Shown: positions 8,537-16,515 of the stretch, piece after piece
Numbering within the stretch: position 1 is the first letter of the stretch
Layout of the letters: every line of letters starts with the position of its first letter
DNA from: Asanoa sp. WMMD1127
GTDB lineage: Bacteria; Actinomycetota; Actinomycetes; Mycobacteriales; Micromonosporaceae
Assembly (NCBI RefSeq): GCF_029626225.1
Contig: NZ_JARUBP010000001.1
Location: 1,860,001-1,924,000, forward strand
Reading direction: 5' to 3'
DNA length: 64,000 bases
Notes under the pieces: generated by a model
Seen by the model: only the letters and a program-made list of their open reading frames with translations
Databases searched by the model: none
Told to the model about the DNA's origin: nothing
Translations under genes and position numbers: made by a program

Positions 8537-9462
8537 GGCGTGTCCTGCCGATCATGAGAGCCAGATGATGGTGGCGATTAGAAGCAGGCTTGCCCGGTAG
8601 ATAGCGGCCCGTTTGGCGAAGCGGGTGGCTAGGTCACGCCATTGTTTGAGGCGGTTGAAGCAACGTTCGACGACGTTGCGCTGCCGGTAGATCTGCGGGT
8701 CGAACGCGGGCGGGCGTCCGCCGCGGCTGCCACGCTGCCCGCGGCGGACGATCTGGTCGCTGCGTTCCGGGATCGTGTGCCGGATCCGGCGGCTGCGTAA
8801 CGCCTGCCGGGTCGAGTCGTGGGCGTAACCCTTGTCCGCGATGAGCATGTCCGGGCGTTGACGCGTCCGGCCCGGCCCGCGCCGCACGGTGATCGCGTCG
8901 AGCAGGTTGAGCAGTTGCGGGTTGTCACCGGCCTGGCCACCGGTCAGCAGGATCGACAACGGCCGACCACGGCGGTCCACCGCAAGATGGATCTTGGTGC
9001 TCAGTCCGCCGCGGGAGCGACCCAGCGCCTCACCCTCTTGCGCTGCCACGGCACCGCCGCCGGCACCCCCTTTTTCCGGGCTCCAGCGGCGTGCTGGTGC
9101 GCCCGGACAATCGAGGAGTCCACGCTGACGATCCATTCGACCGGCTGGCCATCATCGAACACCTGCGCATGGGCCAGGATCCGGTCCCACGTGCCGTCAG
9201 CGGTCCACCGTCGTAGCCGTTCATGACAGGTCTTCCACGGCCCATACCGTTCGGGAAGGTCCCGCCATGGCGCGCCTGTGCGTAGCTTCCACAGGATCCC
9301 GTTGATCACCTGCCGGTGATCACGCCACCTGCCCGACCGCGTACCCGGCTCGGGCAACAACGGCTCGATCACCGCCCACGCCCTGTCCGTCAGCTCACCG
9401 CGACCCACCACCACGGCATATTGGACGACCAACCCCTACATGATCGGCAGGACACGCCCTAG
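8533..9462 (-). mobile_element. IS5-family insertion sequence (IS427-like organisation)
   Basis: A 930-bp element is bounded by perfect 24-bp inverted repeats at 8533-8556 and 9439-9462, which read CTAGGGCGTGTCCTGCCGAT at the left end. The outer CTAG (or TA) is probably the target duplication. It carries one transposase gene split over two frames. The insertion lies on the TAG stop of the upstream ESX gene; duplication of the target keeps that stop, so the gene is intact. The element appears complete and may be active. Confidence 0.92.
8552..9432 (-). CDS. IS5-family DDE transposase made by -1 frameshifting
   Basis: The N-terminal frame (9432 down to 9001) encodes the DUF4096-like DNA-binding part (LTDRAWAVIEPLLPEPGTRSGRW) and the first catalytic Asp in VSVDSSIVRAHQ. 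The second frame (from about 9136 down to 8552) encodes GRSRGGLSTKIHLA, the second Asp in LIADKGYAHD and the Glu in RNVVERCFNRLKQWRDLAT. The overlap contains a minus-strand slippery run, AAAAAGGGGG at 9066-9075. A -1 slip there joins ARKKG to GAGGGAVAAQEGEALGRS, as in other two-frame IS5 members. No stop interrupts either part, so this is programmed frameshifting rather than decay. Confidence 0.9.
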
Positions 9463-11043: not shown

Positions 11044-11919
11044 ATGACAAAAACCGCCGCCGCCCGCGCTTTCGGAGTCGTTTCGATCCTCGGACTGCTG
11101 ACCGCTGTCGTGGCCACGGTGGTCGGACACATCGGACTCGGCCCTGGGTACGACCCGCTGAAGCTCACGATCAGCGACTACGCGCTGTCCAACCGGGGCG
11201 TGACGATCGAGATCGCGATGGTCGCCCTCGCGCTCGGCGCGCCCGCCCTGCTCGCCGGCCTCCGCGCGGTCGGGGTCGCGATCCGGGGGCTGCCGACCGT
11301 ACTCCTGTCGATCTGGTCCGTCGGAATGCTGATCGCCGCGATCATCCCGACCGACCCGCCCGGCATGGAGGTCATGTCGACCGCCGCGTTGATCCACCGG
11401 TACGCGTCGGTGGCCGCGTTCGTCGTCCTGCCGGTGGCGGCCGTGCTAATCGCCAGCCGGTTCGCCGGTCTCGGCCGCGGGCTGGCCTCGACCGTCCGCC
11501 GCCTCGCCGTCAGCTGCGCGGTCGGCGTCGCGGTGCTCTGGTACGTAGCCTTTCCCGGCGGCCGCGTCATGATGGGCCTGGTCGAGCGCGGCCTGGTCGG
11601 CATCGAGATCGCCATCCTCGCCGTCCTCTCGATCGGCCTCCTGCGCGCCACCCGGACGGGCAAGCCCGCAAGCGCCGAGCCGGCGCCCGTGATCACGACC
11701 CCCACGACCACCGGTGCCGCGGCCGAACCGGCGCTCGCGTCGCCGCGAGCGACCGCCCCGAACTCCGAGGCCGCGATCGCGTCGCCCAAGGCGGGAGCGG
11801 CAGTGCCCGCGGGCGTCGGGGCGGAGATCACGGCCGGCCCGCGACGGGCCGACGCGGCCGGTCGCGCGCTGGTCGGAGCGGTTAGCAGCCCCGCACACCG
11901 GGGTAGTCCGCGGGCATGA
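11044..11919 (+). CDS. DUF998 family membrane protein with Ala/Pro-rich tail
   Basis: The 291-residue product begins MTKTAAARAFGVVS. Residues 1-200 form about six membrane helices, with the DUF998 hallmark GPGYDPLKLTISDYALS in the first loop. Members of this family are integral membrane proteins of unknown function. Residues 205-291 are a low-complexity Ala/Pro/Thr region that runs through the promoter of the next gene. The protein may truly end there, or the original stop may have been lost and the frame extended. The ATG at 11044 has only a weak GGAAG upstream; an alternative start at 10975 adds a basic 23-residue extension. Confidence 0.75.
   Translation: MTKTAAARAFGVVSILGLLTAVVATVVGHIGLGPGYDPLKLTISDYALSNRGVTIEIAMVALALGAPALLAGLRAVGVAIRGLPTVLLSIWSVGMLIAAIIPTDPPGMEVMSTAALIHRYASVAAFVVLPVAAVLIASRFAGLGRGLASTVRRLAVSCAVGVAVLWYVAFPGGRVMMGLVERGLVGIEIAILAVLSIGLLRATRTGKPASAEPAPVITTPTTTGAAAEPALASPRATAPNSEAAIASPKAGAAVPAGVGAEITAGPRRADAAGRALVGAVSSPAHRGSPRA
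11881..11906 (+). promoter_or_regulatory. SigB/SigF-type promoter of the first small acidic gene
   Basis: GTTAGC (11881-11886), 14 bases, then GGGTAG (11901-11906). This fits the general-stress sigma consensus of actinobacteria (GTTT or GNNT, 14-16 bases, GGGTA). The same pair at the same spacing precedes the duplicated gene. The start codon is ten bases past the -10 element, so the transcript should be almost leaderless. Confidence 0.65.
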
Positions 11920-12122
11920 CCGACGACCGCACCCAGTCCGGCGCCGACCGCGAGCCGCCTCAGGGCGACGTGCTCGGCAGCGACGACTACCAGGAACAGG
12001 GCGAAGCCATCCTCATGGAAACGGACATCCGGGACGAGGAGCCCGAGGCCACCGAAGAGGAGGTCCTCCAGCACCGCACTCCCGAGGTGATCGAGGAGCG
12101 GCTCGACGAGGACCCGGAGTAA
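11916..12122 (+). CDS. Small acidic protein, first copy of a tandem pair
   Basis: The 68-residue product starts MTDDRTQSGADREPPQGD and continues GSDDYQEQGEAILMETDIRD. It is strongly acidic, has no Cys or membrane segment and is probably disordered or helical. It shares N-terminus and core with the gene at 12161, and the homology extends into the promoter, so the unit was duplicated. Its ATG overlaps the stop of the DUF998 gene in an ATGA, but it also has its own SigB-type promoter, so a role under stress or in stationary phase is likely. I do not recognise a named family. Confidence 0.75.
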   Translation: MTDDRTQSGADREPPQGDVLGSDDYQEQGEAILMETDIRDEEPEATEEEVLQHRTPEVIEERLDEDPE

Positions 12123-12160: not shown

Positions 12161-12355
12161 ATGACCGACGACCGCACGCAGGCCCGGGCCGAATATCCGC
12201 TTCCTGAAGAGGAGCGGGTGGGCAGCGACGACTTCCAGGAACAAGCCGAGGCGATCCTGCTGGAATCGGACATCCGGGAGGGAGAAGCCGAGGCCAACGT
12301 CCGAGGCGCAGATCCGCCGGTCGAGCGCCGTACGTCCGAGGAAGCAGCCGAATAG
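12161..12355 (+). CDS. Small acidic protein, second copy of the tandem pair
   Basis: The 64-residue product starts MTDDRTQARAEYPLPEEE and continues GSDDFQEQAEAILLESDIRE, clearly paralogous to the 68-residue protein just upstream. The C-terminal third has diverged and lacks the EEVLQHRTPEVIEERLDED segment of copy one. A strong terminator follows one base after the stop. It is probably a general-stress protein given the promoter; the biochemical role is unknown. Confidence 0.75.
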   Translation: MTDDRTQARAEYPLPEEERVGSDDFQEQAEAILLESDIREGEAEANVRGADPPVERRTSEEAAE

Positions 12356-12402: not shown

Positions 12403-13254
12403 TCAGGGTCGCAGCGGCGCCTGCGAGACGGCGGTCCGCATCTCGTCGGGCGTGCCGGGCGGCACCCACTCCATCCACCACGTCGCGCCCGCCTCGGCCA
12501 CGGTCGCCACGTGCAGCCGCTCCGCCGACCAGTCCGCCCGCCGCCGCCGGCCGCCGACCACCAGATCGAAGCCCTCGACCGCACCCCGGTCGGCCCGCAC
12601 CCGCTCGAGGATCGCCGTCACGTCGGCGGCCGACAGCTCCTCCGGGGCGTCGGAGTAGCGATCATCCGACGACCGCCGGTACGGCAGGAAGCCGTCGTGC
12701 CGCGCCGCCCGGGACACCGCCGCGCGACCCGGCCAGCCGCCGCCGATCCAGATGGGCACCCGTACCGGTGCGGGTTGGAACAGCACGTCGTCGACGCGGA
12801 AGTGGGCGCCGGCGAAGCTGAACCGCTCCCCCGAGAACAAACCGACGAGGATCCGCAGCGACTCGTCGAGCAACTGGGCCCGCACCCGGGGATCAGAGAC
12901 ACCGCCGAACCGGGCGTACGCGTCGTCCTTAGGATCGCCGACCCCGAGGCCCAGCACCACCCGCCCGCCGCTGAGCTGGTCGAGCGTGGCGACCCGGCGA
13001 GCCAGCTCCCACGGTAGGTGCCGGGCCCCGCCGGTCACCGTCGTGCCGAGCCGCACCGACGACGTCGCGGCGGCCATCGCCGCCAGGGCCACCCACACGT
13101 CGGCCGTCGGACAGTCGGGTTCCGCGTTGTAGACGAGGTAGTCCTCGAGGAAGACACCGTCCCAACCGGCGTCCTCGGCGCGGCGGGCGAGCTCGGCCAG
13201 CAGTCGGGGATCGGCACACGCGGCGCCGCAGGGCAGTTCCAGTCCACAGAGCAT
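12403..13254 (-). CDS. LLM-class (luciferase-like) flavin-dependent oxidoreductase
   Basis: The 283-residue protein is a TIM-barrel luciferase-like monooxygenase that would use FMN or F420. Family features are GWDGVFLEDYL near residue 30, the SVRLGTTVTGGARHLPWELAR segment near 70, DQLSGGRVVLGLGVG near 95, and VPIWIGGGWPG near 170. It starts 26 bp after the stop of the B12-binding protein gene on the same strand, so it is probably the third gene of the phosphatase/B12 operon. The substrate is unknown. The ATG at 13254 abuts a GGCGGG, so the start is uncertain. Confidence 0.82.
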   Translation of the reverse strand: MLCGLELPCGAACADPRLLAELARRAEDAGWDGVFLEDYLVYNAEPDCPTADVWVALAAMAAATSSVRLGTTVTGGARHLPWELARRVATLDQLSGGRVVLGLGVGDPKDDAYARFGGVSDPRVRAQLLDESLRILVGLFSGERFSFAGAHFRVDDVLFQPAPVRVPIWIGGGWPGRAAVSRAARHDGFLPYRRSSDDRYSDAPEELSAADVTAILERVRADRGAVEGFDLVVGGRRRRADWSAERLHVATVAEAGATWWMEWVPPGTPDEMRTAVSQAPLRP

Positions 13255-13280
13255 CCCGCCGCTTTACCCAGCGGGCAGGC

Positions 13281-14273
13281 TCAGCTCACGGCGGCGCCGC
13301 GCAGGAAGGCGTGGGCGCGCGGGAAGTCCCGCAGCCGATCGGCCAGGACGTCGAACGTCCGCCCGACGGTGTGCAGCGGCACGCCGCGGCTGTCCAGCAC
13401 CTCGCAAAGCCAGCCGACGAACTCGCCGAACAGCGTCGCGTCGTCGACGTAGACCGCGGCCGCCAGCGAGTCCACGATGTAGCCCAGGTCCGCGACCGTG
13501 GCGTCGACCTGAGCGGGCGAATAGCGCGACAGGTCCAGCCGGTCCAGCGCGAGGTCGATCAGCTCGACGCGGGCGGCGACCAGGCCGGCGTACTCGGTGT
13601 CGTCGACGAGCGACGGTGCGGACGCGCTGTCGAACGCGGCCGTCGCCAGCACCGACGAGGCGGCCCGGGCGTCGGTGGCGTAGGCGACGCCTAGCTTGCT
13701 CGCCCACCGGCCGTCGGCACCGAAACCACGGCCGCCGACCAGCACGGGTACGTCGGTGCGCCGGCACGCCTCGATCGCCTGGAACGCGAGCGGCAGCCGC
13801 ATCGGCAGCGCGCAGGCGAGCAGCACCGCGCGCGGGTCGTGGCGGTGCAGGTAGGAGACGAGGTGCGGGGACGGCACGCTGGCGCCGAGGAAGGTGACGT
13901 CCCACCCGTCGAGCCGCAGCACCTCGGACACGAGGCGGGCCGGCAACGCGTGCCATTCGCCGTCCATGCAGGCCACCACGACCCGGTCGCGGGTCGCGCG
14001 CGGCCGGACCGCGACCGACACCGCCGCCACCACCCGCTCGCTGACGTGGGTGGCGGCGTGCTCCTGGGCGACGCTCCACTCGTTGCGCTGCCACCACTCG
14101 CCGACCTGGGCCTGGGCGGGGGCGACCAGCGAAAGCAGCACCTCGTCGGCCGGCACCCCGTCGTCGAGCAACGCCAGGGCGATGTCGATCGCGCCGTGCT
14201 CGTCGGCCGCGTCGAGGCAGCGCAGGTAGTCCGGGTAGGCGCTCTCCAGGGTCGGCGAAAGCACCGCGGTCAC
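13281..14273 (-). CDS. B12-binding photosensor-like protein without a DNA-binding domain
   Basis: The 330-residue protein has a helical domain (about residues 10-90) and a cobalamin-binding Rossmann domain (about 95-205). It keeps the CarH/LitR photosensor motif W-x9-E-H (W61, E71, H72), which caps the upper face of adenosylcobalamin, and GEWH with His108 as the candidate lower axial ligand, followed by DGWDVTFLGASVPSP. CarH has a MerR-type HTH in front; here there is none. A helical C-terminal domain of about 115 residues is present instead. Its ATG overlaps the stop of the PP2C phosphatase gene (ATGA), so the two are translationally coupled. It is probably a light or cobalamin sensor that controls the phosphatase; this is inferred. 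Confidence 0.82.
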   Translation of the reverse strand: MTAVLSPTLESAYPDYLRCLDAADEHGAIDIALALLDDGVPADEVLLSLVAPAQAQVGEWWQRNEWSVAQEHAATHVSERVVAAVSVAVRPRATRDRVVVACMDGEWHALPARLVSEVLRLDGWDVTFLGASVPSPHLVSYLHRHDPRAVLLACALPMRLPLAFQAIEACRRTDVPVLVGGRGFGADGRWASKLGVAYATDARAASSVLATAAFDSASAPSLVDDTEYAGLVAARVELIDLALDRLDLSRYSPAQVDATVADLGYIVDSLAAAVYVDDATLFGEFVGWLCEVLDSRGVPLHTVGRTFDVLADRLRDFPRAHAFLRGAAVS

Positions 14274-15970
14274 GAAGCCGACCGCCGATCAGGGACGGCG
14301 TGCAGGTGCCGAGCCGGCGAGCCGGGCGAGACGGCGCGCACCGCGAACACGGCGATGTCGTCGTGGTTGCGACCGCCGAGCCAGTCGCCGATGACCTGCT
14401 CGACCCGTTCGGCGAGCGCGGGCGCCGGCATCCGCTGGCAGCCGCCGAGCGCGTCGACGAGCCGCGCGGCGCCGAACTGCTCGCCCCGGATGCCGCCACG
14501 GGCCTCGGTCACGCCGTCGCTGAACAGCAGGCAGGTCTCCCCCGCCGCGAGCTGGACGGTGATCGACGCGATCCGCGGGTCGGGCACCACGCCGATCAGC
14601 ATGCCGCGCAGGTCGACCGTCTCCACCGCGCCGTCGGCGCGGACCACGATCGGCGGGAGGTGGCCGCCGCTGGCCAGGGTGAGCGACAAACCGCCGCCGT
14701 GCACGGGGTTGGCCCGGCCCAGCACCATGGTGGCGAAGCGGCCGTGGCCGTGTGCTCGGGTCGTCTCCAGGACGGAGTCGTTGAGCAGGGTCAGCAGCCG
14801 GGCCGGGTCGGACTCGATCCGCCGCAGCGCCTGCAGGCCCTGCCGGATCTGGCCGGTGAAGACGGCCGCGTCGACGCCCTTGCCGGACACGTCGCCGAGG
14901 TAGAAGAGCGCGCCGCCGTCGGGCAGCTCGTGGGCGCCGTAGAAGTCGCCGCCGATCCGCAGCGAGCTCTGCGCCGGCCGGTAGGCGGCGCCCCACTGCA
15001 CGCCGCCGACGCTGGGCGGCTCGGTCGGGGCGAGGCTGGCCTGCAGCGTCTCGGCCACCTCGGCCTGGTCGCGGTAGAGGACAGCGGCGTCGAGCGCGGC
15101 GCCGGCCCGGGCGGCGAACCCGCGCAGCATCTGCATGTCGTGTTCGTCGAGGTCGGCGGACCGCACGACGACCAGCGCGCCGGTCGCGGCCGAGCTGCCG
15201 GGCAGCGGGACCACCCGGACCGCGACGGTGCCGGGGTCGCGGTCACCCAGCCAGCCGGCCTCGGCCAACTGCTCGGCGAGCCAGTCGGCCTCGGAAGGCT
15301 CGGTGCCCCGCAACGCGTCCTCGACCCCGGGTGGCAGGTCGTCGGCGTTCAGCACGCCGCCGTCGACGAGCGCCGGGCCCTCGGCGTCACCGCCGGCGGC
15401 GCGCCACCACCGGGCCCGGCCGCGGCGCGGCGCGAGCACGACGACCGCGACCTCACCCAGCGTGGGTACGGCCAACCGCACGGCCGCCCGGGCCGCCCGG
15501 TCCTCGTGCAGCGGGTTGCCGAGCTTCTGGCTGGCGGTGGCCAGGAACCGCGCCCGCCCGCGCTCGGCGAGCAGGGCATCGGAGCGGGCGATGGCGTCGG
15601 TGACGTCCTCGACGTACCACGCGATGCTGGTGGCGCCCCCGACCGTGAGGTCGACGCGGCGGCAGCGCACCCGGCGCTCGCCGATGGTCAACTCACCCGG
15701 TTCCAGTGGGGCGATGCCGCAACCGGCCAGCGTGCGGCCGACGGCCAGGCCGGGCATCAGCTCGAGCGCGGGCTGGCTGAACTCGCGGACCACGCCGGTC
15801 GGATCGGTGACGACGACGCCTTCACGGAAATGGTCGACCAGCGTGGTTTCGGTCAGGACGGGAGAGATGCGACGTGGCGCGGATGGTGCCACGGCGGACC
15901 GGCCGGGCGCCGCCGTTGCCGGGACCTGGCGACCGCCCGACTCCGAACCTGCCAGGTCGGCGGTACTCAC
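14270..15970 (-). CDS. PAS-GAF-PP2C (SpoIIE-type) serine phosphatase
   Basis: The 566-residue protein should dephosphorylate an anti-sigma antagonist (STAS protein) in a partner-switching pathway. Residues 40-130 form a PAS-like domain (VDHFREGVVVTDPTGVVREF), about 135-300 a GAF-like domain, and 315-550 the PP2C catalytic domain. The metal-binding Asp motifs are present: GGDFYG, LGDVSGKGVDAA, SDGVTEARGG and NHDDIAVFAV. It therefore looks active. The GTG start at 15970 has AGGGAG upstream at a slightly long distance. It is first in an operon with the B12 sensor and flavin oxidoreductase and divergent from the STAS gene, its likely substrate. There is no anti-sigma kinase in the cluster. Confidence 0.9.
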   Translation of the reverse strand: MSTADLAGSESGGRQVPATAAPGRSAVAPSAPRRISPVLTETTLVDHFREGVVVTDPTGVVREFSQPALELMPGLAVGRTLAGCGIAPLEPGELTIGERRVRCRRVDLTVGGATSIAWYVEDVTDAIARSDALLAERGRARFLATASQKLGNPLHEDRAARAAVRLAVPTLGEVAVVVLAPRRGRARWWRAAGGDAEGPALVDGGVLNADDLPPGVEDALRGTEPSEADWLAEQLAEAGWLGDRDPGTVAVRVVPLPGSSAATGALVVVRSADLDEHDMQMLRGFAARAGAALDAAVLYRDQAEVAETLQASLAPTEPPSVGGVQWGAAYRPAQSSLRIGGDFYGAHELPDGGALFYLGDVSGKGVDAAVFTGQIRQGLQALRRIESDPARLLTLLNDSVLETTRAHGHGRFATMVLGRANPVHGGGLSLTLASGGHLPPIVVRADGAVETVDLRGMLIGVVPDPRIASITVQLAAGETCLLFSDGVTEARGGIRGEQFGAARLVDALGGCQRMPAPALAERVEQVIGDWLGGRNHDDIAVFAVRAVSPGSPARHLHAVPDRRSAS

Positions 15971-16152
15971 GTGCGTCGACTACTCCCTGATCAGTCGGCC
16001 TTGGAAGCCCACCCTACGCGCTTGTTTGCCATGCGGCATGCGACGCCTTCCGGAGCTGATCACCCGATCGACCGTACCCCCACGTCCAACCGGGCGGACC
16101 AGGCGCGGGTGTCCTACAGTGGAGCGGACGTTACGGCACGGAGGTGGCAACG

Positions 16153-16515
16153 GTGAGTCGGCTGGTACCTGACCCGACACCGCTTGTCGTCGATGTCGCC
16201 GACGGTGCCGATGCCGTCGTCACTGTGCGAGGTGACCTCGACTTCCCGTGCGCCGACGTCCTGCGGGTCGCGCTGACCACCGCCCTCGATCGCGAGCCGG
16301 CCAGCCTGACCATCGATGTCGAGCGACTGACGTTCATCGACAGCACCGGCCTGGCCGTGCTCGTGCACGCCTGGCGGCGCGGCAGCGAGGCCGGCGTCCC
16401 CGTCAGCCTGCGGTCGGTCCCGTCGTTCCTGGCATCGATCCTCGACATCACCGGCGTGGGCGAGCTGCTCTCCCGCCCGGCGTCCGCGGCCACCTCCGAC
16501 GCCGCCACCGCCTGA
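16153..16515 (+). CDS. STAS-domain anti-sigma factor antagonist
   Basis: The 120-residue protein is a single STAS domain of the SpoIIAA/RsbV type. The motif FIDSTGLAVLV near residue 62 contains the Ser that an anti-sigma kinase phosphorylates and a PP2C enzyme dephosphorylates. An upstream GTG at 16144 overlaps the GGAGG ribosome binding site (16140-16144); the GTG at 16153 has eight-base spacing and is chosen. It is divergent from the PP2C/B12 operon across 182 bp, which suggests it is that phosphatase's substrate. Its partner kinase must be encoded elsewhere. Confidence 0.9.
   Translation: MSRLVPDPTPLVVDVADGADAVVTVRGDLDFPCADVLRVALTTALDREPASLTIDVERLTFIDSTGLAVLVHAWRRGSEAGVPVSLRSVPSFLASILDITGVGELLSRPASAATSDAATA

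Follow-up and report, generated by a model that had tools for sequence, protein, structure and literature searches.

The 64,000-nucleotide stretch of DNA analysed here (the window; Asanoa sp. WMMD1127, NCBI RefSeq assembly GCF_029626225.1, contig NZ_JARUBP010000001.1, positions 1,860,001 to 1,924,000 of the forward strand) holds a compact cluster in which a gene for a B12-binding protein lies directly behind one for a PP2C-type phosphatase, with a gene for a STAS antagonist divergent from the latter. The genome that contains the window measures 7.97 Mb in 3 contigs. The B12 protein belongs to the photocobilins, photoreceptors that use adenosylcobalamin (AdoCbl) and biliverdin (PMC10979010). 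The principal components, numbered within the window, are as follows.

13281-14273, minus strand: photocobilin, standalone, 330 amino acids (phmmer against the PDB, AlphaFold2 [AF2] model, Foldseek)
14270-15970, minus strand: PP2C/SpoIIE-type phosphatase, 566 amino acids (Pfam PF07228, E 3.5e-42)
14270-14273, minus strand: GTGA overlap of the PP2C stop codon and the photocobilin GTG start (sequence)
16144-16515, plus strand: STAS anti-sigma-factor antagonist, 123 amino acids, candidate substrate (Pfam STAS_2, NCBIfam ant_ant_sig)

The photocobilin gene starts with the GTG at 14273, overlapping the PP2C gene directly upstream by four nucleotides; an earlier note on this DNA had read the junction as ATGA, and while the 4-nt overlap stands, the letters are GTGA. 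A start codon giving a 4-nt overlap is present in 94 of 118 homologous PP2C-photocobilin pairs, in a tally for which the script chose whichever start lay nearest to -4. The STAS protein, which that note had also described as divergent and as carrying a DSTG motif, is there as described, with the motif at 16339-16350 and its serine codon at 16342-16344; it matches Pfam STAS_2 at E 3.4e-14 and NCBIfam ant_ant_sig at 53.9 bits (cut-off 53.45).

Identity of the B12 protein

Pfam recognizes two domains in the B12 protein, B12-binding_2 (residues 16-84) and B12-binding (residues 97-199), and residues ~200-330 match no Pfam family. The best match in the PDB is SasPcob, the standalone photocobilin of Saccharothrix syringae (8J2W/8J2X; E 1.1e-91 over residues 15-323 by phmmer), followed by weaker matches to AbPcob (E 8.5e-43) and CarH (E 5e-11). 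Identity is 52-53% to SasPcob, 34% to AbDPcob (8J2Y), a photocobilin-diguanylate cyclase fusion, and 25-29% to the listed TtCarH entries. Three domains can be assigned.

14022-14228, minus strand: four-helix B12-binding_2 domain, residues 16-84, with W61-x9-E71-H72 (PF02607, E 3.4e-12)
13677-13985, minus strand: Rossmann B12-binding domain, residues 97-199, with the lower-ligand motif E106-x-H108 (PF02310, E 6.8e-16)
13284-13592, minus strand: C-terminal globin (photoglobin) domain, residues ~228-330, with D262 and W288 (alignment to SasPcob; AF2 helices 228-328)

Structure prediction of the B12 protein alone, which the earlier note had proposed as a check, yielded an AF2 model with a predicted local distance difference test score (pLDDT) of 92.3, which Foldseek superposes on 8J2X along the chain (template-modelling scores 0.93/0.91, root-mean-square deviation 1.7, 53% identity). 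Because the model fits 8J2X along the chain, residues ~200-330 are, as modelled, a globin domain of bilin type that packs against the B12 domain. The same note had cast the protein as a CarH-type sensor, and in part its description holds: the W-x9-E-H motif and His108 are present, neither Pfam nor NCBIfam finds a helix-turn-helix or MerR DNA-binding domain, and a B12 photosensor does stand beside a PP2C, often with a STAS gene nearby. The CarH framing itself fails, and the C-terminal globin had been missed. CarH was rejected as the family since SasPcob is by far the better match and the protein includes a globin; the NCBIfam CarH model, which has a cut-off of 400 bits, scores 62.7. With CarH/LitR the window protein has in common the B12 photosensing core (W-x9-EH, ExH), whereas CarH lacks a globin and binds DNA through a MerR domain. 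The B12 protein is a standalone photocobilin, not a CarH-type sensor. The same genome has, ~100 kb before the pair (locus L146, 5359-6270), another gene that does combine MerR and B12 domains in the manner of CarH/LitR; its neighbours encode a polyprenyl synthetase and an amine-oxidase-type flavoprotein.

All eight chromophore-site residues that were checked are kept (W61, E71, H72, E106, H108, H137, D262 and W288), with H137, D262 and W288 equivalent to His137, Asp270 and Trp296 of SasPcob; the numbering was read from the phmmer alignment, anchored on His108, such that SasPcob equals the window protein to ~residue 195 and runs at window+8 in the globin. Among 111 PP2C-paired photocobilins, the window's included, W61, E71, H72, H108 and W288 are each found in all 111, E106 in 110, H137 in 104 and D262 in 101, and H108 is present in 124/124 distinct photocobilin proteins. 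Replacing the AbPcob residue equivalent to SasPcob Asp270 is said to weaken biliverdin binding (PMC10979010). The window protein resembles SasPcob in its standalone domain order, its fold and its checked chromophore residues. It also has the photocobilin fold in common with AbDPcob, which differs in that its output is a fused cyclase, its biliverdin aspartate is a histidine, and its activation by light was measured, where here it is inferred. The B12 protein is predicted to sense red light besides green, through biliverdin. Its binding of AdoCbl and biliverdin, as well as a passage from dark dimer to light monomer, would follow SasPcob, the dark dimer of which is converted by light to a monomer (PMC10979010).

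Conservation of the pair and supply of chromophore

Three samples of genomic context were compared, i.e., the closest relatives in 61 genomes (own included), the best 80 of 503 loci in named genomes, which are the nearest by similarity and hence a biased set (seven of them genomes already seen), and a 396-genome draw from the phylum. Among the 61 genomes, the PP2C gene is directly upstream in 19 of 20 loci taken from the closest relatives and, when full-length photocobilin genes are counted with the own one included, in 23 of 24; because the genome carries 18 SpoIIE genes in 8 Mb and yet the PP2C is directly upstream in 23/24, the pairing is more than chance. It is upstream in 80/80 of the best 80 of 503 named loci, the nearest of which belong to Asanoa species with a B12 protein 83-85% identical. 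The phylum draw gave a match at E 1e-15 in 118 of 396 genomes, with at least 33 full-length photocobilin genes among the matches listed (full-length being a listed match from the N-terminal part that reaches model position >=300). Among these same listed matches, for which at most five candidates were scored per genome and weak matches are under-represented, the PP2C accompanies 21/21 genes of the window's own class, including the window and three already seen, and 0/12 of other classes. With all samples pooled and seven genomes counted twice, a same-strand PP2C lies upstream of 118 of 131 photocobilin genes; rare adjacency in relatives, which the earlier note had said would count against its reading, is not what this survey shows.

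The association also runs in the other direction. A profile of the PP2C gave 25 matches above 400 bits in the 61 genomes, the next score being 298, and 23 of the 25 adjoin a photocobilin. PP2Cs of this type (>400 bits) occur in 20/21 genomes with a photocobilin and in 0/40 without one; as the profile was built from 67 paired partners, high scores arise by construction, and what tells is the drop to 298 bits and the lack of any such match in the 40 genomes. On an 84-row photocobilin tree, the PP2C label needs one change (support 88), a number as low being reached in 0/500 shuffles, with the placement of several unpaired, long-branched rows unsure. The PP2C pairing is a clade trait of the window's own class, the Actinomycetes.

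Other arrangements were encountered along the way. In Microbispora triticiradicis (L137, 4850-6957), two tandem photocobilins stand behind one PP2C, a locus counted among the 80 above. The partners occupy separate reading frames in the tallied pairs, no search aimed at fusions having been made. Six records of a plasmid collection hold a relative at E 1e-20, five of them with a PP2C, the Nonomuraea record being chromosome-sized. On the plasmid of Streptomyces sp. SGAir0924 (L180, 4938-8907), a photocobilin that keeps the checked chromophore residues lies upstream of gvpJ, gvpK and gvpL/F; no PP2C was found in that stretch, and gas-vesicle neighbours were not seen at the other photocobilin loci compared. 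The L180 arrangement possibly reflects light-controlled gas vesicles, or else chance.

As to chromophore, the window's own genome encodes a heme oxygenase (E 1.7e-53), a source of biliverdin. The enzyme is found in 17/21 photocobilin genomes and 14/40 others among the 61, the match in one genome (G048) being weak at E 7.9e-5. This co-occurrence was set aside as support, since within the window's own family the figures are 15/17 versus 11/20 and kinship explains part of it. In three Streptomyces loci (L183, 1911-6017; L126, 2892-6960; L136, 2887-6957), a gene of CbiZ type (adenosylcobinamide amidohydrolase) and a HATPase gene sit just upstream of the pair, an arrangement that links B12 salvage to the sensor. 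These CbiZ-type genes, together with the four of 21 photocobilin genomes in which no heme oxygenase was found and the biliverdin occupancy of only ~20% in AbDPcob (PMC10979010), would suit a CarH-like switch that senses green light or the level of AdoCbl by cobalamin alone, its globin binding no bilin in vivo. Such a switch is nonetheless improbable given that the biliverdin aspartate (D262) and W288 are kept among paired proteins at the frequencies cited above and that the window's own genome has a heme oxygenase.

Architecture of the phosphatase and flanking sequence

The AF2 model of the PP2C (pLDDT 90.3) comprises two domains, with a helix at residues 124-150 between them, ahead of a long helix and the catalytic domain.

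15605-15850, minus strand: PAS-like domain, residues 41-122 (AF2 secondary structure and confidence)
15161-15505, minus strand: GAF-like domain, residues 156-270 (AF2 secondary structure; sub-threshold Pfam GAF, E 0.033)
15035-15145, minus strand: long linker helix from GAF-like domain to phosphatase, residues 276-312, proposed switch (AF2 model)
14333-15001, minus strand: PP2C catalytic domain, residues 324-546 (AF2 model; Foldseek)

By Foldseek, the catalytic domain resembles the phosphatase domains of SiaA, Rv1364c, RssB and SpoIIE, and its metal-binding aspartates (Asp342, 360, 485, 537 and 538) are present in 110/110 homologues. Outside the catalytic domain, the best conserved segment is the linker helix, in which 11 of 37 columns are conserved at >=90% over the 110 sequences, versus none in the PAS-like domain. 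The helix is aligned in 110/110 PP2Cs and the PAS-like segment in 91/110, the latter a lower bound because each row covers the profile match alone; the 19 rows without an aligned PAS comprise 14 with <=78 residues left, two cut at contig ends, one split and two with a long unaligned N-terminus. The PAS-like and GAF-like domains carried by the PP2C itself raise the alternative that the pair is co-transcribed and uncoupled, the phosphatase answering its own ligands and the photocobilin acting elsewhere, as do the two PP2Cs of the same type without a photocobilin and the one plasmid photocobilin without a PP2C. The near-perfect reciprocal co-occurrence across several families and on plasmids, and the contrast between a PAS segment unaligned in 19 PP2Cs and a linker helix aligned in every one, speak against it and render it quite improbable.

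Between the PP2C and STAS genes lies one further conserved feature.

16012-16040, no strand assigned: conserved 29-base element with an inverted repeat, CATGC-G-GCATG (11 bases), and a -10-like TAGGGT facing the PP2C gene (locus alignment)

The pattern, which was derived from an alignment of the same loci to which it was matched, gives one match per genome in 7/7 genomes (G000-G005 and G036), each adjoining the PP2C gene; occurring once per genome, at the pair locus alone, it names no regulon and was rejected as a regulon mark. A 9-mer of the element recurs upstream of 31/108 PP2Cs and looks like an ordinary promoter. On the other side of the pair, the interval covered by the earlier note includes an F420-type luciferase-like (LLM) oxidoreductase gene at 12403-13254. 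Considered as a member of the system, it was rejected, as it is present in only three of the six nearest relatives' regions (found in L039, L040 and L043; missing from L041, L042 and L044), and it is probably outside the system. Farther along are two small acidic paralogues, of ~68 and ~64 amino acids, side by side at 11918-12121 and 12161-12355, which match no Pfam or NCBIfam family and have relatives near the PP2C-photocobilin pair in five Asanoa regions. A transposase of IS4/IS5 type spans two reading frames that overlap, DUF4096 followed by DDE_Tnp_1, at 8552-9432.

The proposed light switch and its output

The locus is probably a two-gene light switch, in which the photocobilin sets the PP2C and the PP2C acts on the STAS protein. 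AdoCbl would be held between the helical domain and the Rossmann domain, with biliverdin in the C-terminal globin; as has been shown for SasPcob, the photocobilin would form a head-to-tail dimer in the dark, and green or red light would break the Co-C bond and leave a monomer. The photocobilin, its translation presumably coupled to that of the PP2C, would bind the phosphatase, likeliest at the GAF-like domain and the long linker helix. The linker helix is the likeliest contact given the action in trans that photocobilins have on a cyclase (PMC10979010). For RsbU, from the general stress response of Bacillus subtilis, a partner protein (RsbT) orders the linker and dimerises the phosphatase, the same linker logic has been proposed for cyclases, and coiled-coil linkers gate RsbU-type phosphatases (PMC12143880); the photocobilin may set its phosphatase much as RsbT sets RsbU. 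The likeness lies in a PP2C with a partner-set linker helix and a STAS substrate, and the difference in the partner, for RsbT is released from the stressosome whereas at the window locus the partner would be a photoreceptor (PMC12143880). A somewhat favoured direction is dark off, light on. Active PP2C would then dephosphorylate the divergent STAS protein at the serine of its DSTG motif, and the STAS protein in that state may bind a distant anti-sigma kinase and so free a sigma factor.

Among 109 paired loci, STAS genes lie near 78, in two arrangements, and 125 of 147 STAS matches carry DS[ST]G. Within the Micromonosporaceae named loci, a divergent STAS is found in 36/52 and a downstream one in 35/52, many loci having both; in Streptosporangiaceae, Streptomyces and Pseudonocardiaceae, the STAS genes found are downstream. 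On a Streptomyces xanthophaeus plasmid (L182, 1588-7002), a STAS-HATPase-STAS group that includes a HATPase_c_2 protein is divergent from PP2C-photocobilin-STAS-MarR, and another locus (L185) has an annotated ATP-binding protein and a STAS. The S. xanthophaeus plasmid, typed as mobilizable, thus bears most of a partner switch. A light-gated PP2C might instead have a substrate other than the adjacent STAS, or the STAS might control a non-sigma target, e.g., an enzyme. The STAS gene not found in the examined stretch of 31/109 pairs, and the window in which neither sigma factor nor kinase was found, fit this alternative, and against it stand the 78 loci with STAS genes, most of which carry DS[ST]G and which occur in two arrangements, as well as the HATPase_c_2 protein and two more STAS of L182 and the ATP-binding protein and STAS of L185. 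It is judged unlikely, though worth keeping in view, and a sigma-factor partner switch is the likeliest, presumptive output of the pair.

Several observations weigh against the proposed switch. As for its output, besides the 31 pairs with no STAS found, no HATPase anti-sigma kinase was found in the window, the nearest PF13581 match in the genome being ~92 kb off; none of the genome's 95 Sigma70_r2 matches falls inside the window; and a nearby HATPase (E 1e-4, five Asanoa seeds) occurs at just 10/130 homologous loci. As for the pairing, two own-class photocobilins lack an upstream PP2C, namely a diverged gene in G057 (L057, where a PP2C is convergent) and the plasmid copy L180, and PP2Cs of the photocobilin type with no photocobilin found alongside occur at L178 (G008, 597 bits) and L179 (G027, 520 bits). 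The last two genomes also possess a PP2C-photocobilin pair. To these are added the four photocobilin genomes with no heme oxygenase found. Finally, the trans effect of SasPcob changes sign without biliverdin, and the full-length cyclase fusion remains dimeric in light by small-angle X-ray scattering (PMC10979010), which make the direction and the dimer-to-monomer step of the switch uncertain.

Earlier publications cover the photocobilins as a family, partner switching by PP2C and STAS, and a suggested link between them, the link as a STRING prediction: STAS, SpoIIE and PP2C phosphatases are named as predicted SasPcob partners (PMC10979010, section 9), and the function of standalone photocobilins is called less clear in the same paper. 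A measured photocobilin-PP2C link was not found in a limited literature search. For SasPcob, the partner link comes from STRING, the available text describing no PP2C or STAS assay; the present counts show how often the genes adjoin, where the clade limits lie and how far presence is reciprocal. What is added is a near-invariant pair with its class limit, reciprocal presence, counterexamples and a concrete mechanism, which takes the matter from network prediction to direct test. A strict, class-wide pair names one candidate partner for standalone photocobilins.

Across the Actinomycetes, the natural output of the standalone photocobilin may be one dedicated PP2C, with the photoreceptor taking the part of RsbT, setting the linker helix according to light and so making a sigma partner switch respond to green and red wavelengths, a generalization for and against which the balance is even. 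If true, the pair would offer a light-controlled protein phosphatase usable as a tool, and a bilin-type globin related to that of RsbR, which serves as a homologous outgroup (PMC10151467), would represent a second recruitment into stress signalling. Likewise, soil actinomycetes would have a sigma switch, of stress or developmental type, that responds to red and green light via B12 and biliverdin.

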